IMG/VR virus record: IMGVR_UViG_3300032093_000295
Location: 1 to 41,227 of that record
Strand: one strand, 5' to 3'
Source: a virus
Length of the DNA stretch: 41,227 nucleotides
In this document: positions 3 to 40,982 of the stretch, piece by piece
How the letters are laid out: each line of letters starts with the position of its first letter
How positions within the stretch are numbered: the first letter of the stretch is position 1
Program-made: the position numbers and the translations under genes
The notes under the pieces: model-generated
What the model saw: only the letters and a program-made list of their open reading frames with translations
Told to the model about the DNA's origin: nothing
The model's database searches: none

Positions 3-350
3 ATTGCCACTTATGCCGAAGTTTCTGGAATTTCAACATACTCTGAAGTTGCTGGGATTGCAACTTATGCTGTTAATGCTGGAGTCGCAACTTACTCTGA
101 GTATTCTGGAATATCTACATATTCTTCACTATCAGGTATTGCAACATATGCAAATAATGCTGGTGTAGCGACATATGCCAATAATTCTGGATTCTCCACA
201 TATTCGAATCTTGCCGGTATAGCAACTTATGCCGAAGTTTCTGGAGTATCAACTGTTTCTGGATACTCCGATTTTTCTAATTATTCAAATTCTTCTGGAA
301 TATCATCTTATTCTGAACTATCAGGAATATCAACAAATGTAATCGGTGGG
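3..350 (+). repeat. Nonapeptide (27-bp) tandem array, block 1, truncated by window start
   Basis: Twelve complete 9-residue units and one partial unit run in frame. The consensus is G-I/V/F-A/S-T-Y-A/S-x-x-A/S, and the last unit is GISTNVIGG. Units begin at 27, 54, 81 and so on, exactly 27 bp apart. Two degenerate units (243-296) lose the GIxTY core. Confidence 0.9.
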
Positions 351-1958
351 ATTGCATCTGTTACTAGATTAAACGTATCCGGAATTACAACACTTGGAGT
401 TGTAACGGCATCTCAAATTTCTGCCGGTATTATCACGGCATCTAATTTTGTTGGTGTTGGTTCGGGTCTTACTGGTGTTATTGGCGTATCGACTCAGTGG
501 ATTACAACCTCAGTAGGAATTCATACTCTATCTAAGGTTGGTATAGGAACCACTAGACCACTTTATGATTTGCACGTAAATGGTGAGGTTGTTGTTTCTG
601 GTGGAACATCGACAACTCAACATATTAAAATTAAGGCATACGAGCAAGATGGTGGGGCACTGAGTTTTGAGGGTTCATCTGGTCAATTACTTTCAGTTTC
701 AAATAATTTAACCGGAACTATTTTTGGAATTAATAATATAGTTGGCGTTCCAATTATTGAAGCCAATTCAAATGGGACAATTTCTCTTGGTGAGAGTGGT
801 GGTAATGTTGGTATCGGAACAACACTACCAACTTCAAGACTTTATGTAATTGGTGATGGGTACTTTACTGGTGTAGTAACTGCAACTAGATTTATTGGTG
901 ATGGAAGTCAATTAAGTGGTATCTCTGCCGGTATTGCAACTTATTCTGCAGCAGCTGGAATTGCTACATATGCCTCATTTGCCGGTATTGCCACTTATGC
1001 ACAAACTGCTGGCATAGCAACTTATGCTCAGGTAGCAGGTATTGCCACTTATGCTCAGGTAGCAGGTATAGCAACATATGCTCAGGTAGCAGGTATATCA
1101 ACTTATTCTATAACATCTGGCATTGCCACTTATGCACCACTTGCTGGTATTGCCACTTATTCTGAAGTAACGGGTATTGCCACTTATGCTCAGGTAGCAG
1201 GTATAGCAACCTATGCCCAGACTGCTGGTATAGCAACTTATGCTCAAACTGCTGGTATTGCCACTTATGCAAATAATTCAGGATTCTCCACATATTCAAA
1301 TACCTCTGGAATATCGACAAGTGTAATCGGTGGTATTGCAGATGTTACTACTTTACACGTAACTGGAATATCAACCCTTGGAGATGTTACAGTAACAGAA
1401 CTTGTATCTACTGGAATTGTAACGGCATTTAAGTTCGTTGGTGATGGTTCATTACTTACCGGAGTTATTCCATCATCATCGACTGGTATTAGTATTAGAA
1501 AGGATGATATTAATGTTGGTGTTGCAGTTACAATCAACTTTGGAAGATATCTAAATGTAAGTCCTGCTTCGGCAGGTATTGTTACAGTTACAACTCCATC
1601 ATCAATACCCACAGGAATTTCTAGAAATGCAACATCATTTATTGCAACTGAGGGGCAATCAATATTCTTAAGTGAATATGTTGTTGGAAGTATTGATGTA
1701 TTCCTAAATGGTATTCGTCTTAATGAATCTGAATACGTAGCATCTAACGGAACATCAATTACTTTAAGTGAAACTGCATCGGCAGATGACTTACTTGAAA
1801 TTGTTTCGAGTCAGATTCTATTCATTCCATTTGGTGATTATGGTGATTTTGGTGCGGTTACATCTGATGCATTTGGCATTCCTACTTCACCAACATTTGA
1901 TGCGCTAACTGACCCACCGGCAATAGTCGCAATAAATGACTTAGGTCCACTTTCTTAA
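3..1958 (+). CDS. Partial tail-fibre-like virion protein with nonapeptide repeat arrays (5' end outside window)
   Basis: The reading frame is open from the first complete codon, so the true start lies upstream; the first internal ATG is at 570. The visible 651 residues are modular. There is a nonapeptide array (consensus GIATYAxxA), then a 'VTASQISAGIITASNFVGVGSGLTGVIG' type linker and a 'VGIGTTRPLYDLHVNG' module. A second nonapeptide array follows, then a 'DINVGVAVTINF' beta module. The C-terminal 110 residues contain 'FIATEGQSIFLSEY..VGSIDVFLNGIRL', a small domain I know from phage fibre and appendage proteins. No enzymatic motif is visible. It is probably a trimeric fibre or decoration protein on the virion, named from module resemblance only. 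The stop codon is followed by a late-promoter-like octamer for the next gene. Confidence 0.85.
   Translation: MATYAEVSGISTYSEVAGIATYAVNAGVATYSEYSGISTYSSLSGIATYANNAGVATYANNSGFSTYSNLAGIATYAEVSGVSTVSGYSDFSNYSNSSGISSYSELSGISTNVIGGIASVTRLNVSGITTLGVVTASQISAGIITASNFVGVGSGLTGVIGVSTQWITTSVGIHTLSKVGIGTTRPLYDLHVNGEVVVSGGTSTTQHIKIKAYEQDGGALSFEGSSGQLLSVSNNLTGTIFGINNIVGVPIIEANSNGTISLGESGGNVGIGTTLPTSRLYVIGDGYFTGVVTATRFIGDGSQLSGISAGIATYSAAAGIATYASFAGIATYAQTAGIATYAQVAGIATYAQVAGIATYAQVAGISTYSITSGIATYAPLAGIATYSEVTGIATYAQVAGIATYAQTAGIATYAQTAGIATYANNSGFSTYSNTSGISTSVIGGIADVTTLHVTGISTLGDVTVTELVSTGIVTAFKFVGDGSLLTGVIPSSSTGISIRKDDINVGVAVTINFGRYLNVSPASAGIVTVTTPSSIPTGISRNATSFIATEGQSIFLSEYVVGSIDVFLNGIRLNESEYVASNGTSITLSETASADDLLEIVSSQILFIPFGDYGDFGAVTSDAFGIPTSPTFDALTDPPAIVAINDLGPLS
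930..1307 (+). repeat. Nonapeptide (27-bp) tandem array, block 2
   Basis: Fourteen consecutive in-frame units of 27 bp encode GIATYAxxA variants; GIATYAQVA and GIATYAQTA recur several times. The block ends in GFSTYSNTS and then GISTSVIGG, matching the end of block 1. Several units are almost identical at DNA level, which points to recent expansion by slippage or unequal recombination. Confidence 0.93.
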
Positions 1959-1980: not shown

Positions 1981-4900
1981 ATGGCAGGCAAAAGTCGTCA
2001 ATCCGCAAATCTAACTTCTAAGAACAACATCTTTGTAGATGCGGTTGCCGATAATACTGGCATAGGAACTACAAGTCCCAAAAGTAAATTAGATGTTGTT
2101 GGGAATGCAAGAATTTCTGGCATTTTGACAGTCGGAGTATCATCATCTGTTACTATTGATGGTAATGCTGGAATTGTAAGTGCTACTAAACTATATGCTG
2201 CCGGTATTGACGTATCATCCTTTATTGCTGGTGCGGGTTATGCTAATACTTCAGGTATTGCTACTGTTGCTCTAGGGATTGTTACGACTGCAAATATTAA
2301 TACAATAGGAATTATAACTGCTTCTAATTTTGTTGGTAGTGGTGCTAGTTTAAGTGGAATTTTCATCAACCAATTAGAAGATGTAGATATTATAGAAGGA
2401 ACTATCAGTGATGGTCGCGCCTTAATTAATGTAAATGGTAAATGGAAAACCGGTCCTATCATTGGAGGATATGAATATTTTTCGGGTAATGACCCGTATA
2501 TTGGTAATGTAAGCATTGCTTTACCTTATGATACAGATTTCTTAGATAAAAGTGGTAATTTTGATCAAATTACTTCTATATTATCTGTAACACAAAGTGG
2601 TACACCTACTATTACTACAAGTACTAAAAAATATGGAGCAGGTGCTTTATCTTTAAATGGTACTAGTTATTTAAATTATACTACATTAACTAATCAATCA
2701 GACTTTAATATTGGAACTGGTGATTTCACATTTGAATTATGGGCTAGAGATACTAAGGGTTTTAGTGCTCGTGGTCTTTGCCTTTTCCACGGTATTGAAA
2801 TAGTAGTTGATTCTGGAAATAATCTTAGTATACAACTAGGTAGTAGTAACTTTAGTGTCAGTAGTACCTTCTTTAATATTATTAATAATTGGGTGTATAT
2901 TGCCATAACTAGGCAGAGTGGTACGGTAAGATTTTTTACTGATGGAGTATTGCGTAGTACACATACGGGAAATACTTCAAACATATCGTATGGTACTGGG
3001 TGGATAGGGAGGGCTAATCCGTCTTCTCCTTATAACTGGACAGGACAAATTGATGATGTTCGTTATACAAAGGGAATTGCCAGATATACTTCTACTTTTT
3101 CTCCTCCATCTGCGGCTATTTTAGGAGATTATATTTCTCTTCCATACTCTATTAATAATTTGGACGATGTTGATACATCTAGTAATGCACCAGTTACTGG
3201 ACAATCACTTGTTTGGAATCAATCTACTAGTAAATGGGAACCAGGATATACCGGACTAACGACAACTGCAAGTGTCAATACAACGGGTATTGTAACAGCA
3301 TCATCATTTGTTGGTGTTGGTTCTGGACTCACTGGAGTTATTGGTGTATCGACTCAGTGGATTACTACATCAGTAGGAATTCACACACTATCTAATGTTG
3401 GTATAGGAACTACAAATCCAACTTCAAGACTTGATGTTCGTGGTGATATTATTGTTTCTGGTGTAGTGACGGCATCATCATTCGTCGGCAACTTAACCGG
3501 AACTGCAACGACTGCTACTACATTAACAAGCGATGTTAGTGTTAATACTAGTGGTATTGTAACAGCAACAAAGTTTGTTGGTGATGGTTCTGGTCTGAGT
3601 GGTATCATTGCTGCCAGTAGTGGTGGAATATCACTTCAAAATGATAATAGTCCTGTAGGAACTGCCGGAACTATTAATTTTGATAATAATTTTGACCTTG
3701 AAATCTCCGGAGGAATTGCAACAGTTACTATTGTATCTGCTCCGGGTCTTACCACAACCGCAAGCGTTAATACCACAGGTATTATTACGGCATCTAATTT
3801 TTCTGGGAATTTTACAGGAACTTTTGTTGGTAGTGGTTCTAGTCTAACCGGAGTTGTTGGGTTATCAACTCAATGGATCACTACATCGGCAGGAATTCAT
3901 ACACTATCTAAAGTTGGCATAGGAACCACAAATCCAGTCTCAAATCTAGAAGTTTTTGGGACAGTGAGTGTTGCCGGAACTTCTGGCCAACTATTTTCAG
4001 TAGTCGATAGTTTGGCAACAGGAAGTATCTTCAGTGTCAATGATATTAGTGGAATTCCAAGTATAGATGTTGATGCTGATGGGTCTATTGAACTAGCACC
4101 TTTTAATGGTGATGTTGGAATTGGAACCACACGAGCAAGAGCAAGATTGGATGTTCTTGGTAGCGTATTGGTAACTAATATTTCTGCAGGTATTGTTACG
4201 GCAACAACGTTCTCCGGCAACATCGTAACTCGTGTGAATGGGAGTGTTGGTATTGTATCAGTAGGAATTGTCAGTATGTCTGACTTCCAGTATCAACCAC
4301 AAGGAGTTGTGACATTAAGTGATAGATGGGATTCTTATAATGCAATTAACTCTAGTGGTGGATGGGATATTTCAACAAATAATTCATTACCAACAATCAG
4401 ATTGAACTGGGTTCCATCTGTTTCTCAAAATGGAACTAGTGGAACTACTTGGAGAACCAATTTCTTAGATAAAGTTAAGACAGGGGATTTGGTTCAGTGG
4501 AGTAAAGATGGAATTAACTGGAACTCTTTTATACAACCATTTGATTCTTATTCACCAGGAAGCAATTCTGTTGCATTTTATGCTGGTGCTTCCGTTCCTA
4601 CTGGTGGCTCAATGTATGTTCGGTACATTACCACAAGAGCAACAGGAGTTCAGGCACTTCAAAACGGACAAATTTTACAGTATGATTCTGCATATACAAA
4701 ATGGATGCCATTTGGACCTTATGCAAACTGGGAATCAACATCTGCAGGAATTAACACCCTAAGAAGCGTTGGTATAGGGACCACAAATCCGCTAGGTATA
4801 TTACACATTTCTTCAACCGGTGTCACAAAGTTAATTATTGAAGCAGATTCTGATAATGTTAATGAGGCAGATAATCCTTTCATTATTTTCAGACAAGATG

Positions 4901-5898
4901 GTGGTCTAGAAGAGTCTGCTATTTGGAAAGGTAACACTGTTGGAACTAATGATAATTCTTTAAATATTGCAAATACATCGACAGTTGGTGCGGGCGGAAT
5001 TAGATTTTTAACCCAGGTAGCCATTGGATATACTAATGCCGTTGAAAGAATGGCAATTACAAATCCGGGTGATGTTGGAATAGGAACCACGAATCCAACC
5101 GCAAGACTTGATGTTCTGGGTAATGTTATTATTTCTGGAATAGTTACGGCATCATCATTTATTGGAACCACATTTAGTGGAACTACATTTGTCGGAAATC
5201 TAACAGGAACAGCAACTACTGCAATTAATTTAACAAGTGATACGAGTGTCAATACGACTGGTGTTATAACCGCAACAAAATTTGTCGGTGATGGTTCTGG
5301 GCTCACCGGAATTGTTGCGACAAGTAGTGGAGGTATTTTCTTACAAAATAATGATATTAATATTGGGGCGGCATCAACAATTAACTTTAGTAGTAATTTT
5401 GTTGTCGAAACTTCTGGTGGAATTGGAACTGTTGGTATTAATACTGCAAGCACAATAACTGCAGCGGCATTTGTTGGTGATGGTTCTGGACTTACAAATG
5501 TTTCTGGTGGTGGAGGAGCATCTTCAAGAACCATTGTTTCTGGTATTACTACTGCACTGGTAGTAAATGGTATTGGTAACACTGAGATAGCTGGATTTAA
5601 GACTTATGGGGTATTAAAAGTTGGCGTATCTAGTGCCGCTTGGGTGCGCCTATATACTGATAGCACTTCTAGGTCTAATGATGCATCTAGGTCAATTGAG
5701 GTAGACCCGATTACCGGAAGCGGGGTTATTGCTGAAGTTGCAACTGCCGGTATTGCCACCGTAAAAATGACTCCCTTTATTGTTGGATTTAATGATGATG
5801 ACCCAGTTACGACTACAATCTACGTAGCAGTTAAAAACTTAACCGGAATTACAACTAGCATTTCAGTCAATTTAACAATCTTAAAGATGGAGGAATAA
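1981..5898 (+). CDS. Large modular tail-fibre-like protein with a LamG/concanavalin-like domain (1305 aa)
   Basis: A 1305-residue mosaic. The start MAGKSRQSANLTSKNNIFVD is followed by a 'GIGTTSPKSKLDVVGNARISG' module. Residues about 176-380 look like a LamG_3/concanavalin-A-like jelly roll: the KYGAGALSLNGTSYL, GDFTFELWARD, NNWVYIAITR, FTDGVL and GQIDDVRYTKGIARYT strings are typical of that fold. Several copies of '[18 protein letters not shown]' and '[14 protein letters not shown]' modules follow. The last 125 residues (from about 1180, ending in a 'SISVNLTIL' strand) are clearly related to the end of the 238-aa protein at 23053. The LamG-like part suggests glycan binding; as part of a virion fibre it could recognise the host surface. 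The ATG follows a late-promoter-like octamer, and the next gene starts 2 bases after the stop. Confidence 0.85.
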   Translation: MAGKSRQSANLTSKNNIFVDAVADNTGIGTTSPKSKLDVVGNARISGILTVGVSSSVTIDGNAGIVSATKLYAAGIDVSSFIAGAGYANTSGIATVALGIVTTANINTIGIITASNFVGSGASLSGIFINQLEDVDIIEGTISDGRALINVNGKWKTGPIIGGYEYFSGNDPYIGNVSIALPYDTDFLDKSGNFDQITSILSVTQSGTPTITTSTKKYGAGALSLNGTSYLNYTTLTNQSDFNIGTGDFTFELWARDTKGFSARGLCLFHGIEIVVDSGNNLSIQLGSSNFSVSSTFFNIINNWVYIAITRQSGTVRFFTDGVLRSTHTGNTSNISYGTGWIGRANPSSPYNWTGQIDDVRYTKGIARYTSTFSPPSAAILGDYISLPYSINNLDDVDTSSNAPVTGQSLVWNQSTSKWEPGYTGLTTTASVNTTGIVTASSFVGVGSGLTGVIGVSTQWITTSVGIHTLSNVGIGTTNPTSRLDVRGDIIVSGVVTASSFVGNLTGTATTATTLTSDVSVNTSGIVTATKFVGDGSGLSGIIAASSGGISLQNDNSPVGTAGTINFDNNFDLEISGGIATVTIVSAPGLTTTASVNTTGIITASNFSGNFTGTFVGSGSSLTGVVGLSTQWITTSAGIHTLSKVGIGTTNPVSNLEVFGTVSVAGTSGQLFSVVDSLATGSIFSVNDISGIPSIDVDADGSIELAPFNGDVGIGTTRARARLDVLGSVLVTNISAGIVTATTFSGNIVTRVNGSVGIVSVGIVSMSDFQYQPQGVVTLSDRWDSYNAINSSGGWDISTNNSLPTIRLNWVPSVSQNGTSGTTWRTNFLDKVKTGDLVQWSKDGINWNSFIQPFDSYSPGSNSVAFYAGASVPTGGSMYVRYITTRATGVQALQNGQILQYDSAYTKWMPFGPYANWESTSAGINTLRSVGIGTTNPLGILHISSTGVTKLIIEADSDNVNEADNPFIIFRQDGGLEESAIWKGNTVGTNDNSLNIANTSTVGAGGIRFLTQVAIGYTNAVERMAITNPGDVGIGTTNPTARLDVLGNVIISGIVTASSFIGTTFSGTTFVGNLTGTATTAINLTSDTSVNTTGVITATKFVGDGSGLTGIVATSSGGIFLQNNDINIGAASTINFSSNFVVETSGGIGTVGINTASTITAAAFVGDGSGLTNVSGGGGASSRTIVSGITTALVVNGIGNTEIAGFKTYGVLKVGVSSAAWVRLYTDSTSRSNDASRSIEVDPITGSGVIAEVATAGIATVKMTPFIVGFNDDDPVTTTIYVAVKNLTGITTSISVNLTILKMEE

Positions 5899-7178: not shown

Positions 7179-10100
7179 ATGCCTACACAAGTTCAGTTTA
7201 GAAGAGGAAACGAAGGTCAAAATAATAACTTCAAAGGTGCTGCTGGAGAAATCTCCATCAATACCGATACTAATTCTGTTCGTGTTCATAATGGTATTAC
7301 CACGGGTGGTTTTGAACTAGCAAGAGATGACCTATCCAACGTAGGAAATGCCAGTATCTCAGGTATTCTTACCGCAACACAATTTGTTGGCGATGGTTCC
7401 GGACTCACTAACCTAGTTGCCACAGGAGTCGGAGTCGAGATACGAGATAATATCTCTGTTGTTGGAACTGCCGCAACAATTGACTTTGGTGATAATTTAG
7501 TAGTATCTCTTGCCGCAGGGGTCGCAACAGTTACTGCACTGAATACATCTAAATGGGAAGCAAGTCCATCTGGTATTGTTACTACATCAAACGTTGGTAT
7601 AGGGACCACAGACCCACAATATGCTCTGCACGTTATCGGTGATGTAAGAATTACGGGAATTCTTACTATTGGTAATTCATCGGTTACTATTGATGGTAAT
7701 ACGAATACGATTAATATTGGAACTGGAGTCACTGTTTATGGAAACACTGGTATTGTAAGTGCCAGTGCTCTTTATGTTAATGGTGCAAATATTTCTAATT
7801 CTTCTGGTTATGCATCTACCGCAGGTATTGCAACATATGCAACTTCTAGTGGTATTGCTACTTATGCATCAACCGCAGGAGTATCCACAACTCTTACAGC
7901 GACCTCAAGTGTCAATACAACTGGTATTATAACCGCAAGTAAGTTTGTCGGTGATGGTTCTGGAGTCACCGGAGTTATTGGTGTATCTACCCAGTGGATT
8001 ACAACATCTGCAGGAATTCATACTCTGGGTAATGTGGGCGTAGGAACCACAAATCCAAAAACAAGATTGGAAATTAATGGAGTTTTAGGATTTTCTACTG
8101 TTAATCGAAATATAAGAATTGGTGATAATACCACTGGAACTAATTTAACTACTGGGTCTGATAATATTTTTATAGGTTCTGGAGTAGGAAATTCTGCTAT
8201 AACTGGATATCATAATGTTTCCATAGGGCATCAATCTGGATATTTGGGTGTTACGACAACTACTGTAGGAAATACTTATGGGTTACATACTCCAGGAGTT
8301 CTTGTTATTCCCTCTCAAGCAAATCAAACATATGTTCTTACAAATCGAAGTGGCAATCTAAGTGGAACCGGATTTGGAATTACATTATATAGAAACTCTT
8401 TTGGATCAATAAATTCTTGGTCATTAAATAATGGTGGATCTGGGTTTGTTGCATATGAAAGAATTACAATTCCTGGAAATTTAATAGGTGGATCAACACC
8501 AACAAATGACATAACAATTACAGTACAAACAGTTTCTTCTACAGTAGTTCAATCAATTTTTGCTCCTGGTGTAAGCGTTATACAATCTCAAGCAAATCAA
8601 AGTTATTCACTAACAAATTTAAGTGGCAATATAAGTGGAACTGGATTTGGAATTAATATTACTAGAAATTCTTTAGGAGAAGCATCTTGGACTTTTACTT
8701 CGAAGGGAATTAATTTTGTAGAAAATGAAGTAATTGCTATTCCAGGAACTTCCGTAGGAGGATCTAGTCCTTCAGATGATATAAAACTACTAGTTGTTTT
8801 AGATAATTTTGATTCAAACCGCAGCACTAGAATTGGATACAAGGCAGGATATACATTTGGGGGAAATAAAAATAACTTCTTTGGTGCTTTCGCTGGATAT
8901 TCTAATTATAGTGGAAATTATAATAACTTCTTTGGTGCTTATTCTGGATGCAACAACACATCTGGAAAACAGAATACTTTTATTGGTAAATGTTCTGGTT
9001 ATTACAATACCACGGGAAATTGGAATGTCATTATAGGAGAAGAAGCAGGATTTTGTAATACTACTGGACCAGAAAACACTATAGTTGGTTCTTGGGCAGG
9101 ATTTTATAATACTACTGGTGGATATAATTCGTTCTTTGGATCTGGGTCTGGTCACTATAATCAAACTGGTTGCTTCAATACTTTCTTAGGAAATTATACT
9201 GGATTATCGACTTCAGCATCTTATAAAGTTGTTATTGGATCTGGTGAATTCTGGGGTAACAATTTTGATTCTCCAGATATCACTAAAGATAAGCAATTGG
9301 CGATTGGTGTAAGAACTGATGCTAATCCTGCAGAATACTGGTTAGTCGGTGACGAGAACTTTAACATTGGTATTGGAACCATAACCCCGACATCAAAACT
9401 CCAAGTAGGAGGAACAGTAACCGCAACGGCATTTGTTGGTGATGGTTCTGGACTGACAGGCATAGTTGGAACTGGATCTGGAGTAGAAGTTAGAGATAAT
9501 GGTTCTGTAGTTGGGACAGCATCCACAATTGATTTTGGTGATAACTTAACTGTAACATTCAGTGCAGGCATTATGACCGTTACTGGTCCTTCTCCCTCAG
9601 GATCAGGATCTGATTTTGTAAGGACTAGTGCTGGTATTCATACTTTGGGTAATGTTGGTGTCGGAACCACTAATCCAAGAACAGCACTCACCGTCAATGG
9701 AATTATTAGTTTCAGTAATACTAACGTAAGAATCGGTGGAACTGATACTGGTTCCAAAGTAACTACAAGCCTTAATAATGTTTTCATAGGAGTAGGAGCT
9801 GGTAATAGTATTTCAGATGCTGGTGCTGGTGGATATAATATTTTTATTGGTGAGTCTGCTGGAGGTAATGCTACTGGTGGTTATGATAATATTTTTATGA
9901 ATGATTCTGCTGGTTTTAATAATACTACAGGGTCTTCAAACAACTTCTTAGGTTATTATGCAGGACGTTACAACACCACGGGACAGTTCAATAACTTCTT
10001 AGGTCTTTATGCGGGAAGAGGAAACACCACGGGTAGTGATAATAACTTCTTAGGTGATCGTGCAGGAAGAGATAACACTACTGGAGTTTCCAACAATTTC

Positions 10101-12164
10101 TTTGGGTCATATGCGGGGAATAGTAACACCACTGGATATAATAATAACTTCCTAGGTTGTTCTGTAGGATATGCAAACACTTCTGGGCACGATAATAATT
10201 TCTTTGGTGCTCTGGCCGGTAAATGTAATACTACTGGAAATTGGAATAACTTTTTAGGTGGTTGTGCGGGAGAATGTAATACTACAGGTTGTTTTAATAA
10301 CTTTTTTGGTTCTTGGGCGGGATTTTGCAATACCACAGGACAATATAATTCTTTCTTTGGAAATGGTGCCGGTAATTATAATCAAACTGGTTCATATAAC
10401 ACTTTCTTAGGAACTTATACAGGTCTTTCGGCATCAGCATCTTATAAAGTTGTTATTGGATCTGGTAAAAATTGGGGAAATAATTTTGATTCTCCAGACA
10501 TCACTAAAGATAATCAACTAGCGATTGGCATAAGAACATCATCTGCTCCTGCAGAATACTGGTTAGTAGGTAATGAAAACTTTAACATCGGTATTGGAAC
10601 CACAAATCCCACCACAAAACTTCAAGTAGGAGGAACCGTAACCGCCACGGCATTCGTTGGTGATGGTTCTGGACTCACCAATCTGCCTGCTGGACCTGCC
10701 GGAACATCAGACTTCGTAAGAACTAGTGCCGGTATTCATACACTAGGTAATGTTGGTGTAGGAACCACTAATCCAAAAGTAAAACTACAAATCAACGGAA
10801 CTCTAGGATTTGAAGTTTATAATGCTACTGGGATATATACTGGTACTAATATTCTAATTGGAGATATAACAACTGGTTCTAATCTACTTCCAGATTCAAG
10901 TGGATATGGGTTGAATAATATCTTTATGGGTATTGGTGCCGGTAATAGCACAACCACCGGGTATTATAACAACTTCTTTGGTGCTTTTACAGGACAATCC
11001 AACACCGTTGGATTTAGTAATAACTTCTTAGGTTATCGAGCAGGATACTCCAACACCGATGGAAGTTGTAATAATTTCTTAGGTTTTTATGCAGGATACT
11101 GCAGCACCGCAGGATATGATAATAACTTCTTTGGTCATAATGCAGGATTCTACAACACCACTGGAAGTTATAATAACTTCTTTGGTAAAAATGCAGGACT
11201 CTGCAACACCACTGGAAGTGATAATAACTTCTTAGGTAGGACTGCAGGATACTGCAACACTACTGGAAACAATAATATCTTTTTAGGTGTAGAAGCAGGA
11301 TATTTAAACACCACTGGAAGTAATAATAACTTCTTAGGTTATTTTGCAGGAAAATTGAACACCACTGGATGTCAGAATACTTATATTGGTCATCAGTCTG
11401 GAACTTATGCAGAAACTGGATGTTTCAATACTTTCTTAGGTTCTTACTCTGGAACAATTGTTTCTGCAGCATCCAGTATTATAGCAATTGGTCATGCTGC
11501 AGGATATAATGCATCCGTTGGAACAAGAAATACTTTCCTTGGTTCCTATAGTGGTATGAGTGTAGATGCTGGAAGTAATAGCATTTATATTGGTGGATTT
11601 AGTGGATTAGGAACTGGATCTTATAAGGTTGTAATTGGTGAGGGTGGAAATAAATGGGGCAATCCAAATACTGAGCTATTTGACACACCATATCCAAATA
11701 AAAATTTCCAATTAGCAGTTGGTGTAAGAACTGATGCTAATCCTTCCAAATATTGGTTAGTAGGTGATGAGAACTTTAACATCGGTATTGGAACCACAAA
11801 CCCATCCGAGAAACTATCAGTCACTGGAAATATTGCCCTGAATCAGACTACGGTTTATGGTTCGGTTCAGGCATCAACGGCATCCACAAGTGTAACTGGA
11901 ATTCATTCTGGTCTTTCTACTTCTGTTTATCGCTCAGTTGAATACACAATTCAGGCAACCAGTGGAACGAATTATCAGGCAATTAAGATTCTTGCCATTC
12001 ACGATGGAACAACCGCATATGATACTCAGTATGGTAACATATATAATACTGAGGTCGCAACATTTGATGTTGACATTTCGGCAGGAAATGTTAGACTGGT
12101 AGCAGCAGCATCATCAACTTCAACCACGAATTATACTGTCAACTTTATCGCAACTAAAATATAA
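7179..12164 (+). CDS. Giant tail-fibre-like protein with YadA-head-like 17-residue repeats (1661 aa)
   Basis: The N-terminus '[39 protein letters not shown]' resembles the attachment module of many phage fibres. GDGSGLTNL, '[20 protein letters not shown]' and GIGTTDP modules follow. There are three blocks of about 17-residue repeats (consensus NNFFGxxAGxxNTTGxx) at residues about 549-688, 866-1093 and 1246-1485. Each block is closed by a conserved cap reading [10 protein letters not shown] ... [19 protein letters not shown] ... [15 protein letters not shown]. Residues 373-543 hold a 91-residue tandem domain duplication. The C-terminal 80 residues, with [18 protein letters not shown], look like a terminal domain common in cyanophage fibres. 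The repeats resemble the left-handed beta-roll of YadA-type adhesin heads. Likely a long trimeric fibre or spike; the exact structural position is unknown. Confidence 0.85.
8295..8808 (+). repeat. Tandem duplication of a ~91-residue domain inside the 1661-aa fibre
   Basis: Two copies start at 8295 and 8568, 273 bp apart in frame. Both begin GVxVIxSQANQxYxLTNxSGN and both end in an IPGxxxGGSxP strand. Related single copies appear in the 1752-, 495- and 2007-residue proteins of this window. Confidence 0.8.
8823..9240 (+). repeat. 17-residue (51-bp) beta-roll-like repeats, block A
   Basis: About seven units of [15 protein letters not shown] type, including units with NTTG cores, end at the cap module KVVIGSG. 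Edges are approximate because the terminal units are degenerate. Confidence 0.8.
9774..10455 (+). repeat. 17-residue (51-bp) beta-roll-like repeats, block B
   Basis: This is the most regular block. The NNFLG/NNFFG core recurs every 51 bp (for example 9991 and 10042). Eight units carry NTTG and three carry NATG, NTSG or NQTG in the same region. Some units carry Cys before the NTTG (KCNTTG, ECNTTG, FCNTTG). Confidence 0.88.
10914..11631 (+). repeat. 17-residue (51-bp) beta-roll-like repeats, block C
   Basis: The same unit as in block B, with [24 protein letters not shown] and [13 protein letters not shown] variants. The final units, with a [21 protein letters not shown] string, come closest to the classical YadA head repeat. 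Confidence 0.85.
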
Positions 12165-12171
12165 TTAAACT

Positions 12172-13074
12172 ATGACTGAAAAAAATAAGATTAAGGGTGG
12201 ATTCTTTTCTGCCACCAATGAACCTAATGCCCCAAAAACATTCTACTTTATGGCAGGACTCCCAAGGTCGGGTAGCTCTGCTCTATCGGCAATTCTTAAT
12301 CAAAATCCTAGATTTTATTCTGGACCTTCCAGTCCCGTCCTTTCTACGATGTTTGCAATTGAGAATCATCTGCAGAATGATGAACTATTTTTTGGTTATC
12401 CAAAACCGCAACAAGCGGATATGATGATCTCTTCGGTTATTCATCAATTTTATAGTGATGTTGATAAACCCGTAGTATTTGATAAGAATCGTGCCTGGAC
12501 TGCACGAGTTCCTTATATTGAAGGATACGTTCGTCAACAGGCAAAGATTCTTGTTCCTGTTCGTGATATTGAAGAAATTCTAACTTCAATGATTATGATG
12601 ATTCGTCGTAATCCATATAAGGAAGGGCAACCAAGAATTAATTTTGTTGATGAGCAATTGGTTAAGCAAAATATTCCCATTAATGATGATAATCGTTGTG
12701 AATTTATTGCCGGTTCTCAGGGTATTCTTGGACAATCGCTCAATGCCGTGATGGAAGCATTCCGTCAGGAGTTTGGTGATAGACTTTATTTTGTTGAGTA
12801 TAAGGATCTTGTAAATACTCCAGAAGAAACTCTTCGTGGAATTTATGATTTTCTTGGTGAAGAATATTATGAACACACTTTTGATAATCTAGAAAATCAA
12901 AATCGGGAACGAGATATTATTACTTATGGTCTTTCCGATATGCACGAAGTTCGTCCGGAACTAAAGGCAACCTCACCAGATCCATCCGAAGTTCTTTCTA
13001 AGGAAATTTTAGAAAAATGTAAGGGTATGGATTTTTGGAGACAGAAACCATCCGGTCTAAATATTGTTAATTAA
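12172..13074 (+). CDS. Sulfotransferase family protein (300 aa)
   Basis: Predicted to transfer sulfate from PAPS to a hydroxyl group of a glycan, protein or small molecule. Residues 24-40 (FYFMAGLPRSGSSAL) match the 5'-phosphosulfate-binding loop of sulfotransferases, with the PRSGSS core at 31-36. Residues 125-141 (KILVPVRDIEEILTSM) match the 3'-phosphate-binding segment, with R131-D132 in the usual VRD context. Residues 206-240 (YFVEYKDLVNTPEETL...IYDFLGEE) match the late conserved region of the family. The length is normal and no signal peptide is visible, so it should act in the host cytoplasm. It starts 7 bases after the giant fibre gene and lies at the head of a four-gene cassette. The acceptor is unknown; virion glycans or host surface polysaccharide are possible. 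Confidence 0.85.
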   Translation: MTEKNKIKGGFFSATNEPNAPKTFYFMAGLPRSGSSALSAILNQNPRFYSGPSSPVLSTMFAIENHLQNDELFFGYPKPQQADMMISSVIHQFYSDVDKPVVFDKNRAWTARVPYIEGYVRQQAKILVPVRDIEEILTSMIMMIRRNPYKEGQPRINFVDEQLVKQNIPINDDNRCEFIAGSQGILGQSLNAVMEAFRQEFGDRLYFVEYKDLVNTPEETLRGIYDFLGEEYYEHTFDNLENQNRERDIITYGLSDMHEVRPELKATSPDPSEVLSKEILEKCKGMDFWRQKPSGLNIVN

Positions 13075-14749: not shown

Positions 14750-17700
14750 TTGGCTAATCAGAATTTTAGAGTTAAGAACGGATTAGAAGTCGGAAATATA
14801 AAAATTGATGCAGGGTCGGGAATTATAACTGCGACTAAATTTGTCGGAGACGGTTCAAGTCTTACTAATCTACCCTCTGGAGGCGGTGGAACCTCTGATT
14901 TTGTAAGAACTAGTTCTGGCATTCATACACTTGGTAATGTTGGCGTCGGAACCACATCTGTTACTTCAGTATTAAATATTTCATCCCCTGCAATTGGGGA
15001 TACTTCAAATTATGTTGTAACTTATGGAAGTTTTGATCATTATGCCTGGGGTGGAATTGGAACTTTCTCAGCAAAGCATTTTGATTTTACAACAGATGGA
15101 AATAATAATACTTATGTTGTAGGAGGTCTTTATAGTGATTATGAGGACTATAACCAAAACCCACTCTATCCATATAGACCTTTTATAGTTAAAATAAATT
15201 CATCTCGCCAATTAGTATGGGACGTTTCTCTATCTTCTACAACACCTGATTATAATAAGTCTTCTGAAGTTTGTGGTATTTGTAGTGCTACAAATGGTGA
15301 TGTTATAGTGGCTATGAAGTCCTATAGATATACAAATCCAGTATATTCTGAAGAAGGATTAAGTCAGTTATCATTTGTCAAAATTAATACTTCCGGAACA
15401 ATACAGTGGCAAACAACAATTAATAATATTCAATTAAATGCTAATGAACTTAGAACCCCAACATATGATGTAGCGAATAGAAAAATATTCTTAAACACAG
15501 ATTCAAGTGGTAATATATATGCTTCAGGTAAATCTGCGGCCGCTCCATTTATCATTAAATTAGATTCTTCTGGAAGTGTATCATTTAGTAAAATATTATA
15601 TAATACAAATGGACCAAAACAATTTGTACTAAAGAATGGCAGCCTATATTGGTTTGGGCAAGTCACTAGTTCTGGAACAAAACTAAGAATTGTTAAATTT
15701 GATTTGAATGGTGATATTGTTTGGGATAGGTGGTTTAATACTAGAACTGCTTTTGGATATAATAGCGACAGCCTAGGTTATACCAAATTTAATATTGATG
15801 ACAGTGAAAACATTTATTTCTTCACAAGAACTCTAGATTGGGACTCTTTTGCACCATTCCCAAATCCGAGTTATGATGGATATGGAATAGGGTATCTGGT
15901 TGAAAAATATAATTCTAACCTCGAATTTCAGTGGTCCAAAAAAATTAATGCCACTGTTACTGGTGGCGACGGCACCAGCGAAATTTTTTATGGAATACCC
16001 GGTGCTATTGAAATTGATTCAAATCAAAATGTGTATGTAATTGCGCCCAATAATAATGAAAGATCCAGACATCCTTTTGGTTATGATATCTTTAAGTTAG
16101 ATTCTTCTGGATCATATGTTTGGAAGAGATTCTTAAGTACTCCAGGATTATCTTATGAGACTGATAATAATAACAATGAAACTGATTCAGTATTAATTTC
16201 AAAAATAGAAATTAAAGGAAATTATTTAAAATTTGTTGGAGACGTTAGAACTCCCAATGTATCCAAAGATATTCTTGGTGGGGATAGTAATTTCAATAGA
16301 GAAACTAATCCACAAACAGACTGGATTGAAAAATATAATAGTGACACTATATCGACTTTAGTTGCTAATTTAAATATAAATGGTGATAACATAGGATTAT
16401 ATGGGTCTTATTCTGTTGAAGATTTAGAAATAACAAGACTTCATGAGTATGCAAATTTCACTACTCGTGATAGATCTTCATTAGTTGTTCTTGATGTTGT
16501 AAATTCTAGTGGTGTATCTACTAATTTCTATCCTCTAGTTAGTAATGTTGGTATAGGAACAACCGTTGGTGTTTCTACATTTACTACCGGTTCAATTGGA
16601 CTTAGTACTACAACGTTAAAGGATATAAATGGGGGGTCAACATTTGCACAATATGAAAATTATCCTCACCTAAAATCAGATACTAGAAAATTATTTGATC
16701 TTACTATTTCAGGAACAACTAAATTATCAAAATTAATAGTTAGAGATATTGAATTCAGCTCAAGCGGACAATCTTTGCATACTATCGCAATTGGATATTC
16801 TTCAGGATTCTATAAGAATACTTCTGGTCGGGGTGCAGAAACAGATTATGGTGCGTGTTATAATACATTTATCGGAGCATATACAACACCTGGTCTTGAA
16901 AGCTATAATCCAATTAAATTCAATAATTTTATAGGATACAGATCTGGCAATTATATGTCTCAATCGTGTTATAATAATTTTATAGGAGCATTTACCGGAT
17001 ATTATAGTGGTGGATGCTATAATAATTTCTTTGGAAATTGTGCAGGATCTTTTACTAGTGGATCATCTAGAAATGTTTTTATAGGATGTCGTGCAGGATC
17101 CTTTATGACGTTTTCCAATAATTCTGTTGCTATTGGAGCAGCGGCTGGTGGATGGGGCGGTGGATATGGTGCGTGGAGCAATATATTCATCGGATCCTAT
17201 GCCGGAGCTAAAACTCCAGACAATATGTGTTATTATGGATATAATGACGGTAATATTTTTATCGGTGGTGGTGCAGGGTGTCGATCCGCAGGAAACTATA
17301 ATATTTTCTTTGGTGCGTATGCCGGAGCTTATAATGTAACCGGAGCTATTAATAATTTCATTGGATATCACGCTGGTGAATTCAATCAAACCGGAAATTA
17401 TAACAATTTCTTTGGATGTTGCCCTGGACCAAATAATACTACAGGAAGTTATAATAATTTCTACGGAAATATTTCTGGATTCTGTAACACTACAGGATGT
17501 TACAATAATTTCTTTGGTAACCAGGCAGGATACGGAAATACATCTGGATGTGGTAATAATTATTTTGGAGAACAATCTGGAGCGTGCAATACCACAGGAT
17601 CCTATAACAATTTCTACGGAACTTCATCTGGATATTGTAACACGACTGGAACTCGTAATAATTACTTTGGTAGTTTTTCTGGAAATTCTACTGAAGCATC

Positions 17701-20008
17701 ATTTAAGGTTATTATTGGATCTGCAAACACTCTTCAAGATCGTTTTGATTCCCCAAGCCCAGATAAAGATAAGCAATTAGCAATTGGTGTAAGAACTGAT
17801 GCTAATCCCGCAGAATACTGGTTAGTTGGTAATGAGAACTTTAACATCGGTATTGGAACCACAAATCCAACATCCAAACTTCAAGTAGGAGGAACTGTAA
17901 CAGCAACAGCATTTGTCGGTGATGGTTCTGGACTCACTAATCTACCAATATCCTCAGATTTTGTAAGAACTTCTGCTGGTATTCATACTCTAGGTAATGT
18001 TGGTGTCGGAACCACCAATCCTATATCAAAACTTACAATTGATGGAGTTCTATCATTCGCTAAAGAAAATACTGTTATTGATAGTGAAAATTTAAATATC
18101 ATTGCTTCTACTGGAGTTCCTGCAGGATTTGCTGGAACTGATGTATCCGGTGGATTTGTTGGTGCTGGATATACTATTAGTGTTGGACTTTCAACATTCC
18201 CAACAGCTCCAGAATTTTTCTCAAGTTATCTGGTAAAAGGATTAAATGGAAACCTTAATGGTAAAGATGCTTCATTCAGTATTTCTAGATGGAATCCTGC
18301 TCCAAAGTTTGGGGGTATTCAATATGTTGTAGTTGATAACTATGGATATGATTTTGTAGTTGGTGAAGTTATTACAATTCCAGGAACTTCAATAGGAGGA
18401 ACTAGTCCCGGCAACGATGTAAAAGTCTACCTTAATGGAGTTGGTCCATCAAGATCACATAATATTGTTATTGGTAAGGATGCTGCTGTTGGTTTTGGAT
18501 CAACAACATTTTATGGAAACTATAATACTGTAATTGGATTTGAAGCAGGCAAATGTTCCAATACTAGTATGGACTTTCCATTTGCTAATTGGTGGGATGG
18601 TGCGGGATCTAATGTAATAATTGGACCAAAATCTGGATATTATAATCAATCATATAATAATGTTTTTATAGGAAATAAGGTAGGATATTCAAATACTACT
18701 GGATATGAAAATATATTCCTAGGATCTTGTGCTGGATATTATAATTCAACTGGTTATGGAAATAATTTTATTGGTATAAATGTCGGATATAATAACACTA
18801 CCGGTTATTATAATAACTTCTTTGGTTATGGATATTCTTCTGGAAATACCACTGGAAGTTATAATAACTTCTTTGGTTATTCTGCCGGTCAATGTAATAC
18901 GACTGGAAGTTATAACAACTTCTTTGGTTATTATACGGGATGTTCCAACACCACTGGAGAGTGCAATAACTTCTTTGGGTATCAAACAGGATATTATAAT
19001 GAAACTGGATGCAATAACAACTTCTTTGGTCAGTATGCAGGATTATGCAATACCACAGGATCCTACAATAATTTCTACGGAACTTCATCTGGATATTGTA
19101 ACACGACTGGAACTCGTAATAATTACTTTGGTAGTTTTTCTGGACTTTCTACCGCAGCATCATTTAAGGTTATTATTGGATCTGGATGCGTTCTTCAATA
19201 TCCTTTTGATTCTCCAAATCCCAATAAAGACCTTCAGTTTGCCGTTGGTGTAAGAAGTGATTCTTTCTCATCCAGGTATTGGATAACGGGTGATGAGAAT
19301 ATGAATCTGGTATTCTACAATTCAGTCATTTTTAATAATGATAATATAAAAATAGGATATTTTGCCGGATGTTGCGCTAATGGTGGCGGTAATAATGTTT
19401 TTATAGGGTATGGTGCAGGATATAATAATTCAGGAGCATCAGATAATAACTTTATAGGACAAGGTGCGGGGTATTATAACACAACAGGACAATTCAATAG
19501 CTTCTTTGGAGAGCGTTCTGGAAATTCCAATACCATAGGATGTTGTAATAGTTTCTTTGGGAGAATGTCTGGATGCTGTAATACTACAGGATCTCGCAAT
19601 AGTTTCTTCGGCACAAGATCTGGAAGTGATAATCAAACTGGAAATTATAATTTATTTTTGGGTGCTTATAGTGGAATTTCAACGGCATCTTCTAACAAAG
19701 TAATTATTGGAGTTGGTACTGTAATTAGTAGTACTAGATACCTATTTGATTCACCAGACACCACCAAAAATACTCAATTAGCAATCGGTGCAAGAACTGA
19801 TGCTAATCCAAGTAATTATTGGTTAGTAGGCGACGAAAACTTCAATGTTGGTATTGGAACCACCAATCCAACATCCAAACTAACCGTAGGTGGTGATGTT
19901 AAGGTTGGGATCAATACCTCACAAGGTGTCATTCTCACTTCTCCAAACGGAACGGCATATCGTCTAGTCGTTGATGATTCTGGTAATCTTTCTACTACAC
20001 TTGTATAA
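14750..20008 (+). CDS. Giant tail-fibre-like protein with beta-propeller-like region and beta-roll repeats (1752 aa), TTG start
   Basis: The start is a TTG reading MANQNFRVKNGLEVGNIKID, a typical N-terminus of cyanophage fibre proteins. No in-frame ATG precedes it, and an AGGGGA site lies about 10 bases upstream. Residues about 92-470 contain blade-like repeats ('DSSGNIYASGKS...FIIKLDSSG', 'DDSENIYFFTR...', 'DSNQNVYVIAP...IFKLDSSGSYVWKR') resembling SBBP/PQQ-type beta-propellers. Three blocks of 17-residue NNFFGxxxGxxNTTG repeats follow at about 679-986, 1236-1474 and 1532-1653. They are closed by the cap modules KVIIGS and [18 protein letters not shown]. The C-terminus (DVKVGINTSQGVILTSPNG...) is related to the end of the 116-aa protein at 27979. 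Probably a fibre or spike that combines an adhesive head with shaft repeats. Confidence 0.85.
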   Translation: MANQNFRVKNGLEVGNIKIDAGSGIITATKFVGDGSSLTNLPSGGGGTSDFVRTSSGIHTLGNVGVGTTSVTSVLNISSPAIGDTSNYVVTYGSFDHYAWGGIGTFSAKHFDFTTDGNNNTYVVGGLYSDYEDYNQNPLYPYRPFIVKINSSRQLVWDVSLSSTTPDYNKSSEVCGICSATNGDVIVAMKSYRYTNPVYSEEGLSQLSFVKINTSGTIQWQTTINNIQLNANELRTPTYDVANRKIFLNTDSSGNIYASGKSAAAPFIIKLDSSGSVSFSKILYNTNGPKQFVLKNGSLYWFGQVTSSGTKLRIVKFDLNGDIVWDRWFNTRTAFGYNSDSLGYTKFNIDDSENIYFFTRTLDWDSFAPFPNPSYDGYGIGYLVEKYNSNLEFQWSKKINATVTGGDGTSEIFYGIPGAIEIDSNQNVYVIAPNNNERSRHPFGYDIFKLDSSGSYVWKRFLSTPGLSYETDNNNNETDSVLISKIEIKGNYLKFVGDVRTPNVSKDILGGDSNFNRETNPQTDWIEKYNSDTISTLVANLNINGDNIGLYGSYSVEDLEITRLHEYANFTTRDRSSLVVLDVVNSSGVSTNFYPLVSNVGIGTTVGVSTFTTGSIGLSTTTLKDINGGSTFAQYENYPHLKSDTRKLFDLTISGTTKLSKLIVRDIEFSSSGQSLHTIAIGYSSGFYKNTSGRGAETDYGACYNTFIGAYTTPGLESYNPIKFNNFIGYRSGNYMSQSCYNNFIGAFTGYYSGGCYNNFFGNCAGSFTSGSSRNVFIGCRAGSFMTFSNNSVAIGAAAGGWGGGYGAWSNIFIGSYAGAKTPDNMCYYGYNDGNIFIGGGAGCRSAGNYNIFFGAYAGAYNVTGAINNFIGYHAGEFNQTGNYNNFFGCCPGPNNTTGSYNNFYGNISGFCNTTGCYNNFFGNQAGYGNTSGCGNNYFGEQSGACNTTGSYNNFYGTSSGYCNTTGTRNNYFGSFSGNSTEASFKVIIGSANTLQDRFDSPSPDKDKQLAIGVRTDANPAEYWLVGNENFNIGIGTTNPTSKLQVGGTVTATAFVGDGSGLTNLPISSDFVRTSAGIHTLGNVGVGTTNPISKLTIDGVLSFAKENTVIDSENLNIIASTGVPAGFAGTDVSGGFVGAGYTISVGLSTFPTAPEFFSSYLVKGLNGNLNGKDASFSISRWNPAPKFGGIQYVVVDNYGYDFVVGEVITIPGTSIGGTSPGNDVKVYLNGVGPSRSHNIVIGKDAAVGFGSTTFYGNYNTVIGFEAGKCSNTSMDFPFANWWDGAGSNVIIGPKSGYYNQSYNNVFIGNKVGYSNTTGYENIFLGSCAGYYNSTGYGNNFIGINVGYNNTTGYYNNFFGYGYSSGNTTGSYNNFFGYSAGQCNTTGSYNNFFGYYTGCSNTTGECNNFFGYQTGYYNETGCNNNFFGQYAGLCNTTGSYNNFYGTSSGYCNTTGTRNNYFGSFSGLSTAASFKVIIGSGCVLQYPFDSPNPNKDLQFAVGVRSDSFSSRYWITGDENMNLVFYNSVIFNNDNIKIGYFAGCCANGGGNNVFIGYGAGYNNSGASDNNFIGQGAGYYNTTGQFNSFFGERSGNSNTIGCCNSFFGRMSGCCNTTGSRNSFFGTRSGSDNQTGNYNLFLGAYSGISTASSNKVIIGVGTVISSTRYLFDSPDTTKNTQLAIGARTDANPSNYWLVGDENFNVGIGTTNPTSKLTVGGDVKVGINTSQGVILTSPNGTAYRLVVDDSGNLSTTLV
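16785..17706 (+). repeat. 17-residue beta-roll-like repeats, block D
   Basis: Units such as NNFFGNCAGSFTSGSSRN and NNFYGNISGFCNTTGCY. The first half of the block is irregular and glycine-rich, and the second half has regular NTTG cores. Edges are approximate. Confidence 0.8.
17585..19144 (+). repeat. 99-bp direct repeat pair joining the ends of blocks D and E
   Basis: Positions 17585-17683 and 19046-19144 match at 97 of 99 bases by eye (two C/T differences near the start). They encode identical residues, [20 protein letters not shown] and beyond. The copies are 1461 bp apart in the same frame, and similarity continues past them into the cap KVIIGS. The span given covers both copies. Confidence 0.88.
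18456..19170 (+). repeat. 17-residue beta-roll-like repeats, block E
   Basis: Regular NNFFGYxxGxxNTTG units with several Cys-containing variants (QCNTTG, LCNTTG, YCNTTG). The last units are nearly identical at DNA level to the end of block D. Confidence 0.83.
19344..19707 (+). repeat. 17-residue beta-roll-like repeats, block F
   Basis: A short block of about six units with FIGYGAGYNNSG, FFGERSGNSNTIG and FFGTRSGSDNQTG variants. It ends at the cap KVIIGVGT. Confidence 0.8.
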
Positions 20009-39633: not shown

Positions 39634-40320
39634 ATGAGCAATGATGAACAATTGAAAATATATGCTGAACCAATCACATCTTTATATTATATAAAATTAA
39701 AGATGCCTGATGATTTATTATTGAAAATAAATCAAGACATAGACTATTTGATTTTAAATAAAGAAGAATTTCAAAAATGGAATAAAAAATTAGCTGGAAA
39801 TATTGAAGAAGAGTATAAACTTTCAGATGAAACATTTTCACTTTTAGAAAATTTTTTCATTGAAGTTGCTCAAAACTACTTTCTTGTATTGGAAGATGAA
39901 ACATTAAATCCCACCAAAAAATGGGATCACGCCGAGGGATTTTTTGATAAGCAGGTATCATACACTCTAGAAAGTTTATGGGTTAATTTACAAAAAAAAT
40001 ATGAATTTAATCCAATTCATACACATTCTGGAGATTATTCTTTTGTAATATGGATTCGCATACCTTACAATTTAGAAGATGAATTAAATTTACATAATTC
40101 CAAAAATGCGAACCAACCTTGTAACTCACTTTTTGAATTTCATTTTCTTGCAGCTTCTGGGGATATACAATCCCTACCATTAAAAGTCGATAAAAATTGG
40201 GAAGGAACTATGGTAATGTTTCCATCTTGGCTTAATCATAGTGTCTATCCTTTTTACACTTCAGATGATTATCGCATTTCAATTTCAGGCAACATAAATG
40301 TTAATATAGGTGATACATGA
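39634..40320 (+). CDS. Putative 2OG-Fe(II) oxygenase 1 (228 aa)
   Basis: Predicted to use 2-oxoglutarate, O2 and Fe(II) to hydroxylate a substrate. The HxH-type metal motif is at 129-131 (NPIHTHSGDYSFV), the distal histidine is H202 in MFPSWLNHSVYPF, and R214 (DDYRISISGN) is in position to bind 2-oxoglutarate. The order and spacing fit double-stranded beta-helix oxygenases of the kind frequent in cyanophages. The N-terminal 100 residues are helical and not recognised. There is no signal peptide. The stop overlaps the next start in an ATGA junction, so the two genes are translationally coupled. The substrate is unknown. Confidence 0.8.
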   Translation: MSNDEQLKIYAEPITSLYYIKLKMPDDLLLKINQDIDYLILNKEEFQKWNKKLAGNIEEEYKLSDETFSLLENFFIEVAQNYFLVLEDETLNPTKKWDHAEGFFDKQVSYTLESLWVNLQKKYEFNPIHTHSGDYSFVIWIRIPYNLEDELNLHNSKNANQPCNSLFEFHFLAASGDIQSLPLKVDKNWEGTMVMFPSWLNHSVYPFYTSDDYRISISGNINVNIGDT

Positions 40321-40982
40321 GTAACATAAAAAAAACATACGAAGATTCAACAAGAATTCCACTTTTTCCAATTTCTTATTTTCATAGTAAAGTTGAAAAT
40401 AATGAAGAAATTAAGAATCTTTTAGTTTCTAAAATACTTAAAGATTCCGAAGAACTTCCGATTCCTGAAGGATGGTTTACCAATAAATTAAAAACATCTT
40501 TTTCAGGAGAAAAACCTGGAAAAGAGATATTCTTTGGTGAGGATAATACGTATCAGTCTATTTTACAAGAAAAATATGCAAAATGTCTTGACAGTTTTTT
40601 TGATTTTAATTATCGCATAATGATAGATGAAATATGGTATAACTGTTATACTGATGGAGAATATCAAGAAGAGCACGACCATTTAAGCAGTCCATTCAAT
40701 AATATTCATTTTTCGTGTATACATTTTCTATCTTTTGATAAGAATATTCATAGACCCCCAAAATTTAAGGATCCATTAGACCAACTTAGAACTATATCAT
40801 TGGAAATGAATAGAAATAATTACCAACCATATTACTATCCAGATATTGAGGAGGGAGACTTTATAATGTTTCCTTCATATCTTCGCCATTCTGTTGAACC
40901 CTGCGTGTATAGTGTGGACTATCCCAGAATTACAATTGCAATGAATATACAAGTTTTAGAATATGGAGGAAATTTGGAATGA
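40317..40982 (+). CDS. Putative 2OG-Fe(II) oxygenase 2 (221 aa)
   Basis: Shows the same architecture as its neighbour: EEHDHLSS holds H120 and H122, EEGDFIMFPSYLRHSVEP holds H191, and DYPRITIAMN holds R204. The proteins on the two sides of the junction are similar only around these motifs, so they are distinct family members rather than a recent duplication. It starts within the previous stop (ATGA, 4-base overlap) and ends in a second ATGA overlap with the next gene. It probably forms a coupled set acting on one substrate or a related series. Confidence 0.8.
   Translation: MSNIKKTYEDSTRIPLFPISYFHSKVENNEEIKNLLVSKILKDSEELPIPEGWFTNKLKTSFSGEKPGKEIFFGEDNTYQSILQEKYAKCLDSFFDFNYRIMIDEIWYNCYTDGEYQEEHDHLSSPFNNIHFSCIHFLSFDKNIHRPPKFKDPLDQLRTISLEMNRNNYQPYYYPDIEEGDFIMFPSYLRHSVEPCVYSVDYPRITIAMNIQVLEYGGNLE

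Follow-up and report, generated by a model that had tools for sequence, protein, structure and literature searches.

Tandem arrays in a cyanophage fiber-region protein follow a three-residue Ala/Ser code and may form a thin trimeric beta-helical shaft

The deepest unit of two tandem arrays in a cyanophage protein is a triplet, x1-x2-[Ala/Ser], and not the nonapeptide GIA-TYA-xxA: Ala or Ser recurs at nearly all third positions. The arrays probably form a beta-helical rod that is very thin and without a counterpart among solved structures. Our leading explanation, held with somewhat less than even confidence, is that they make up rigid segments in the shaft of a homotrimeric cyanophage fiber, with three chains on a common axis and one triplet per layer. 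We regard the triplet code, the constraint on it, its restriction to phages and the geometric feasibility of three-residue sides as established.

Both arrays are in one ORF of the window (the whole stretch of DNA analyzed, 41,227 bases). The genes of the window match cyanophage and tail families, and the source of the array gene is a T4-like cyanophage. The relevant features are:

3..1958, forward strand: ORF carrying both arrays, in the tail-fiber/baseplate region; 651 aa in the window, with the 5' end cut by the window start
3..242, forward strand: array 1, regular part; nine GxxTY nonapeptides, the first cut by the window edge
243..332, forward strand: array 1, degenerate part; the nonapeptide is gone and xx[AS] triplets remain (GVS TVS GYS DFS NYS NSS GIS SYS ELS GIS)
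798..929, forward strand: module preceding array 2, GIGTT.P...L.V.GD...VTATRFIGDGSQLSGI, which recurs in related loci
930..1307, forward strand: array 2; 14 nonapeptides, or 42 triplets, with the triplet pattern reaching 921-1316
7779..7886, forward strand: short triplet stretch in the 1661-aa ORF at 7179-12164; 12 triplets, with two full GIATYA units

The arrays are real, in frame, and far beyond chance. Runs of xx[AS] extend for 36 triplets in array 1 and for 27 and 16 triplets in array 2 (with one Thr between them); shuffling the ORF 2000 times gave runs of at most 9 triplets. A sequence-only reading had counted 14 units in array 2, which is exact, and 12 or more in array 1, which is fair given that three degenerate units keep the phase of the nine GxxTY nonapeptides. 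The related stretch that it placed near 7815 corresponds to the 12 triplets in the 1661-aa ORF. Its strict G-I-A-T-Y core did not hold up: positions vary between I, V and F and between A and S, and one Tyr is replaced by Val. The units of array 2 have a mean identity of 69% in DNA and 68% in protein and differ at synonymous positions, indicating that most copies are not fresh products of slippage.

Three near-identical contigs (L001-L003) extend the ORF upstream of the window start. In L001 the protein is 789 aa long, beginning with MAKFL, and the complete array 1 consists of 13 regular nonapeptides and then the degenerate part. The best family matches of ORF 3-1958 are PHROG 30808 (E 5.4e-24; stretch 315-394 of the ORF, within array 2) and PHROG 6942, tail fiber protein (E 4.1e-18), both of which are family library entries without a described structure or mechanism. 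The ORF also resembles Kyanoviridae proteins from the fiber/baseplate region, such as S-SRM01 gp333 and S-SSM7 SSSM7_233, the latter located close to gp9. A stretch in the L001 ORF 3-1400 that is related to the module preceding array 2 matches PF06598 (Chlorovi_GP_rpt). The 1305-aa ORF adjoining the array gene (1981-5898) has a LamG/ConA-like domain (PF13385, E 1.9e-14). In L003, where the array ORF is 1338 aa and open at the contig end, and in L005/L006, where it is 1380 aa, the array gene and its LamG-type neighbor are fused or interleaved, which suggests module exchange or an assembly join.

The spacing between cores follows the triplet even where the nonapeptide is broken. Core-to-core spacings below 40 were equal to nine in 745 of 816 cases. 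Across 129 loci, which include overlapping contigs, 55 distinct spacings differed from nine, and 54 of them were multiples of three, although 18, 27, 36 and 45 may reflect only a mutated unit. Among distinct spacings that are not multiples of nine (the class of 12, 15, 21, 24, 30 and 33), 33 of 34 were still multiples of three, and triplets inserted between cores nearly always had Ala or Ser as the third residue. In the isolate S-SRM01, a run of 47 triplets (one ending in Thr) combines a 12-residue repeat with the nonapeptide, and the triplets are kept throughout; triplet identity there was 0.30 at lag 4 versus 0.05 at lag 3. Longer runs of xx[AS] were found elsewhere, with 51 triplets in L001 and 91 in L013.

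We collected 168 distinct runs of at least 10 triplets, 3986 triplets in total. The first position was mostly Thr (0.41) or Gly (0.35), then Ser (0.08) and Asn (0.04), with Pro at about 1%. The second was Tyr (0.28), Ile (0.23) or Val (0.10), followed by Ser, Asn, Thr and Phe, and was a large hydrophobic or aromatic residue in about 69% of triplets. The arrays are rich in Ile and Tyr and almost uncharged, with charged residues at 2.9% of outer positions. The distance from one Gly to the next was one triplet in 47 cases, two in 231, three in 857 and four in 72. In 1004 nonapeptide units from the 129 loci, the positions were G (100%), I/V (96%), A/S (99%), T (99%), Y (99%), A/S (~100%), two free positions that are polar and variable (x7-x8), and A/S (99%). 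Because the pattern used to collect arrays fixes part of the core, the fairest count is that of the last position, which lies outside the pattern: its 1002 residues were Ala (0.65), Ser (0.34) and Thr (0.01).

The third residue is also constrained between relatives. The lineage of the window and that of L004/L044 have arrays of 51 and 43 triplets that align without gaps and are 80% and 71% identical, below the flanks (91% and 84%). Of 94 inner sites, 23 had changed, 21 between Ala and Ser and two between Ala and Thr, alongside 39 synonymous changes, while x1 and x2 had substitutions to many different residues. Array length can vary: in the neighboring S74 protein, L004 encodes more nonapeptides than L001 does.

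The arrays are restricted to phages. A two-unit DNA pattern matched at least 118 stretches in viral contigs. In 84,980 prokaryote genomes it matched once, in a Glaciecola MAG, at a contig end that lies outside any ORF of at least 100 aa; the ORFs of that length on the contig look like ordinary bacterial genes. Matches in Pseudomonas and Blautia phages were set aside: the two records examined were antisense to annotated genes and were attributed to chance, and eight other Pseudomonas records were left out. The antisense frame of one of these, L136 (Blautia phage Montmirail), has 47 xx[AS] triplets of the GCS/TVS/GIA type, and cautions that the triplet pattern can be imitated by repeats in DNA.

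Three-residue sides are geometrically feasible for both one and three chains. We searched, independently of sequence, for backbones with a three-residue period that turn 120 degrees per triplet and rise by 1.6 A for one chain or by 4.8 A for three. Right-handed all-Ala solutions were found for both, the best of them leaving no NH unbonded. Exactly one residue in three pointed inward in 20 of 20 listed solutions of the all-Ala search (CB radius 1.75-2.8 A) and in 16 of 16 listed solutions of a search that allowed one Gly position, exempt from the CB clash check. In the all-Ala search, clearance for a gamma atom was 2.4-3.4 A at the inner site versus 3.5-4.4 A outside, such that Ser can fit and larger residues hardly can. 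In the best right-handed solutions the residues ran in the order alpha-R corner, beta outer, beta inner, which would place G/T/S/N at the corner and I/Y/V at the beta position, matching the sequences of the arrays.

Based on these results, we propose that each triplet would be one side of a triangular right-handed beta-helix. The first residue (G/T/S/N) would be at the corner in the alpha-R conformation, the second (I/Y/V/F) would be an outward beta residue, and the third would point toward the axis, where hardly anything larger than Ala or Ser could fit. Each triplet would form one layer with the matching triplets of the two other chains, like stacked "beta-layers". Gain or loss of whole triplets would only change the length of the rod, predicted at ~14 A per nonapeptide, or ~20 nm for array 2 and ~24 nm for the complete array 1. 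The winding of the trimer, the role as a shaft, and these lengths are what we infer from the arrays. The most likely function, judged from position and regularity, is that of a stiff spacer between receptor-facing and baseplate-facing modules. We hold more guardedly, as a possibility, the fuller claim that this is an undescribed tripeptide-repeat beta-helix, made of uninterrupted three-residue layers with an Ala/Ser core and three chains, serving as a length-adjustable cyanophage shaft.

The closest competitor, which we consider somewhat unlikely, is a single-chain beta-solenoid with nine residues per coil and three faces of three residues: GI, TY, and a variable polar face, with ladders of Ile and Tyr. 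In a trimer, three of these rods may lie alongside one another, burying the GI and TY faces. This arrangement easily accounts for the conserved GI and TY and the polar, variable x7-x8. AlphaFold2 (AF2), run on a single chain, predicted a continuous beta-solenoid for both arrays. For the region 798-1592 of the window (75-row alignment), one continuous strand covered all 14 units of array 2 (residues 44-173), with a pLDDT by ten-residue block mostly of 83-98, dropping at the last residues, and flanks at ~47-84. For array 1 of L001, a continuous strand covered residues 100-221 at a pLDDT of ~90 in the regular part, the mean pLDDT of the five models ranging from 72 to 51. However, AF2 gives confident solenoids for repeats: in the available text of PMC11795689, 32 of 78 random repeat sequences were classed as beta-solenoids. 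The predictions for both arrays are therefore a hint and not proof. That both models are beta and not helical also counts for our favored explanation.

Searches for a solved counterpart gave nothing convincing. With the AF2 model there was no acceptable fold match in the PDB (Foldseek best E 0.059, TM ~0.1; VIA one chain, Z 2.0), and the best match in BFVD had E 2.6e-3 and TM 0.28. Sequence searches of the PDB returned chance matches only, and a profile match to Spt5 (8qsz, E 1.3e-6) was a low-complexity repeat. The earlier reading's caveat that the repeat might already have a solved structure was borne out neither by PDB sequence nor, convincingly, by fold. No published description of the repeat was found in a literature search that had little coverage of subscription journals and no matching by meaning.

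In the single-chain model, an inner residue has as neighbors the residues at nine positions along the chain (4.7 A) and at three positions (5.1 A); in the trimer model, it is in contact with its counterparts on the two other chains (3.8 A) and with the adjacent triplets (4.7 A). The nine-residue register of stacked residues is kept in the regular arrays of the window, and is absent in the 12-residue arrays of S-SRM01 and across triplet insertions elsewhere. The mixture of 12-mers and 9-mers in S-SRM01 keeps no nine-residue ladder and counts for three chains over one. Insertions of triplets are common, though in a single-chain solenoid each would rotate all later faces by 120 degrees. Coupling between Ala/Ser choices was strong at lag 3 for two of three position pairs (log odds of 1.11, 1.19 and 0.38, for the pairs of the first unit), and at lag 6 none was significant (0.07, 0.20 and 0.42). 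We counted the free insertion of triplets, together with the lag-3 coupling and the lack of significant lag-6 coupling, for three chains. We also counted for three chains the fact that, in L001, the AF2 solenoid of array 1 ends at residue 221 although the triplet run continues as far as 248.

Some of the evidence points toward a single chain. Coupling at lag 9 was 0.34, 1.17 (position 6) and 0.50, as a nine-residue coil would have it, and the strong value at position 6 is against the trimer unless it reflects duplication history. The crude backbone energy favored the single chain (-16.7, against -14.0 in the trimer), which counts against the trimer, although this energy is too crude to choose between them. 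The large hydrophobic or aromatic x2 residues would be outside in both the one-chain and three-chain models, and this counts against our favored model. Peptidase_S74 is a chaperone that acts on trimeric fibers. It was found in 9 of 10 array ORFs scanned, which we counted, as an indirect indication, for the trimer; these ten had been selected from 86 stop-closed ORFs for carrying an S74-like motif, and two of the nine, L001 and L042, come from one contig. The family search of ORF 3-1958 of the window found neither Peptidase_S74 nor any other known trimer domain, which counts against the trimer.

It is improbable, in our view, that the arrays are a flexible or disordered linker, or have some undescribed fold unrelated to triplet layers. 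The confidence of AF2 can be an artefact, as the available text of PMC11795689 indicates, and the PDB sequence searches yielded no solved relative. Against this are the changes at inner sites, confined to Ala/Ser exchanges and two of Ala/Thr, the constant length over 94 triplets in arrays that are only 71-80% identical, and the abundance of Ile and Tyr with charge at so few outer positions.

Our initial hypothesis, an alpha/beta coiled coil of nonads (Hartmann 2016), now appears quite improbable. It describes a parallel trimer in which IAT is a beta-layer and YAxxAG is a short helical segment. The nonad period fits, and in the register xAG-IAT-YAx the layer positions agree well: beta1 is hydrophobic (1.00), beta2 is Ala or Val (0.76, the rest nearly all Ser) and beta3 is D/N/T/S (1.00). 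Stretches of solved structures given in the available text of PMC4786415, MAT-KDD-IAN (5APZ), IDG-LAT-KVE (2C3F) and AVN-YAQ-LKR (2YO3), resemble IAT-YAQ-VAG. The helical positions do not agree: in 611 frames, a was a large hydrophobic residue in 0.18, e was K/R in 0.00 and g was D/E/Q in 0.14, and the outward positions b and f, expected to be free, are Ala or Ser. Neither single-chain AF2 array model had any helix, although AF2 is biased for repeats. We dropped the hypothesis after these results and those on the triplet spacings.

A collagen-like or polyproline-type triple helix would share the three-residue period and the trimeric fiber context and is very improbable, as every third residue is Ala or Ser and not Gly (Gly starts 35% of triplets), Pro is rare (~1% of first positions), and the ORF has no collagen family match. 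The sequence-only reading had offered a regular beta-solenoid or a collagen-like structure; the solenoid half gained from the AF2 prediction and the feasibility of three-residue sides, and the collagen half failed on its small residue. The RTX beta-roll has the motif GGxGxDxUx. Each of 1004 array units has a single Gly, and Asp is fixed at no position; judged by sequence, both collagen and RTX are excluded. The octapeptide VxGxxxxx of T4 gp5 was also rejected, since the arrays have a period of 9/3 and no octapeptide.

The best analogue of the arrays is the beta-layer, and most array triplets have beta-layer composition. As described in the available text of PMC4786415, beta-layers of the alpha/beta coiled coil (Tcar0761, PDB 5APZ) share with the arrays three-residue layers, a small central residue, a hydrophobic first and a T/S/N/D third residue, a period of nine, and occurrence mostly in phage proteins; they also shift the path of the chain by 120 degrees round the trimer axis, as our favored model would. 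Unlike in Tcar0761, every array triplet has layer composition, position a is polar, and no helical spacer is needed, so that layers would stack without interruption. A 125-aa ORF in four contigs (L129-L132) has two consecutive LATKD-type motifs nine residues apart that resemble the DUF1640/DUF3782 beta-layer motif (PMC4786415, available text). A longer natural array of MATKDD-type nonads was not found in the viral contigs, which contained just this two-motif protein.

Other thin beta structures are less similar. The triple-stranded beta-helix of T4 gp5 (PMC4576200, available text) has, like our favored model, three phage chains corkscrewed round one axis with a repeating motif; its VxGxxxxx repeats have large inward residues in part of the helix, whereas the arrays would have three residues per side and only Ala or Ser inside. 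The Orsay virus delta beta-bracelet (PMC7565637, available text) is likewise a thin oligomeric beta fiber with short repeats that is very long per residue, but it is a pentamer of five-residue strands and three-residue loops with a hydrophobic core. The AF2 model of the arrays is a regular coil with a short repeat per face, as in left-handed hexapeptide solenoids, pentapeptide repeats and insect antifreeze proteins. To our knowledge, none of these beta-solenoids is as small as a coil of nine residues with three on each face would be.

If the favored model is true, the arrays would be a very thin natural beta-helix, and would show that beta-layers can stack with none of the helical spacers known to date. 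In the available text of their paper, Hartmann et al. speculated only on a six-residue version (PMC4786415). If the three-residue code holds, it would provide a simple rule for reading many unannotated cyanophage fiber proteins, with shaft length given by the sequence. The favored model and the single chain make clearly different predictions of length, 14 A versus 4.7 A per unit, and the arrays are a natural test of the AF2 bias toward solenoids.

The tyrosine rows had been suggested to serve for stacking on glycans or for sulfation. We found no positive evidence for stacking, and nothing in support of sulfation beyond a sulfotransferase gene in the window. That gene (12172-13074; PF13469, E 1.4e-15; phrog_27463) is directly after the 1661-aa fiber. 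It is matched by 10 phage records, which include just two of the named phages that have an array-type match, S-SRM01 and S-SKS1. The 1661-aa fiber has an N-terminal Major tropism determinant domain (PF18454, E 4.9e-9) and 51-bp tandem repeats at 9942-10340 and 10990-11369. Tandem repeats of a similar kind (51 bp, 17 residues) are at 18808-19608 in the ORF at 14750-20008, and two-copy tandem repeats are in other large ORFs at 35290-35750 (225 bp, 82% matches) and 38108-38329 (117 bp, 92% matches). Two adjacent 2OG-Fe(II) oxygenase genes (PF13759) are at 39634-40982.
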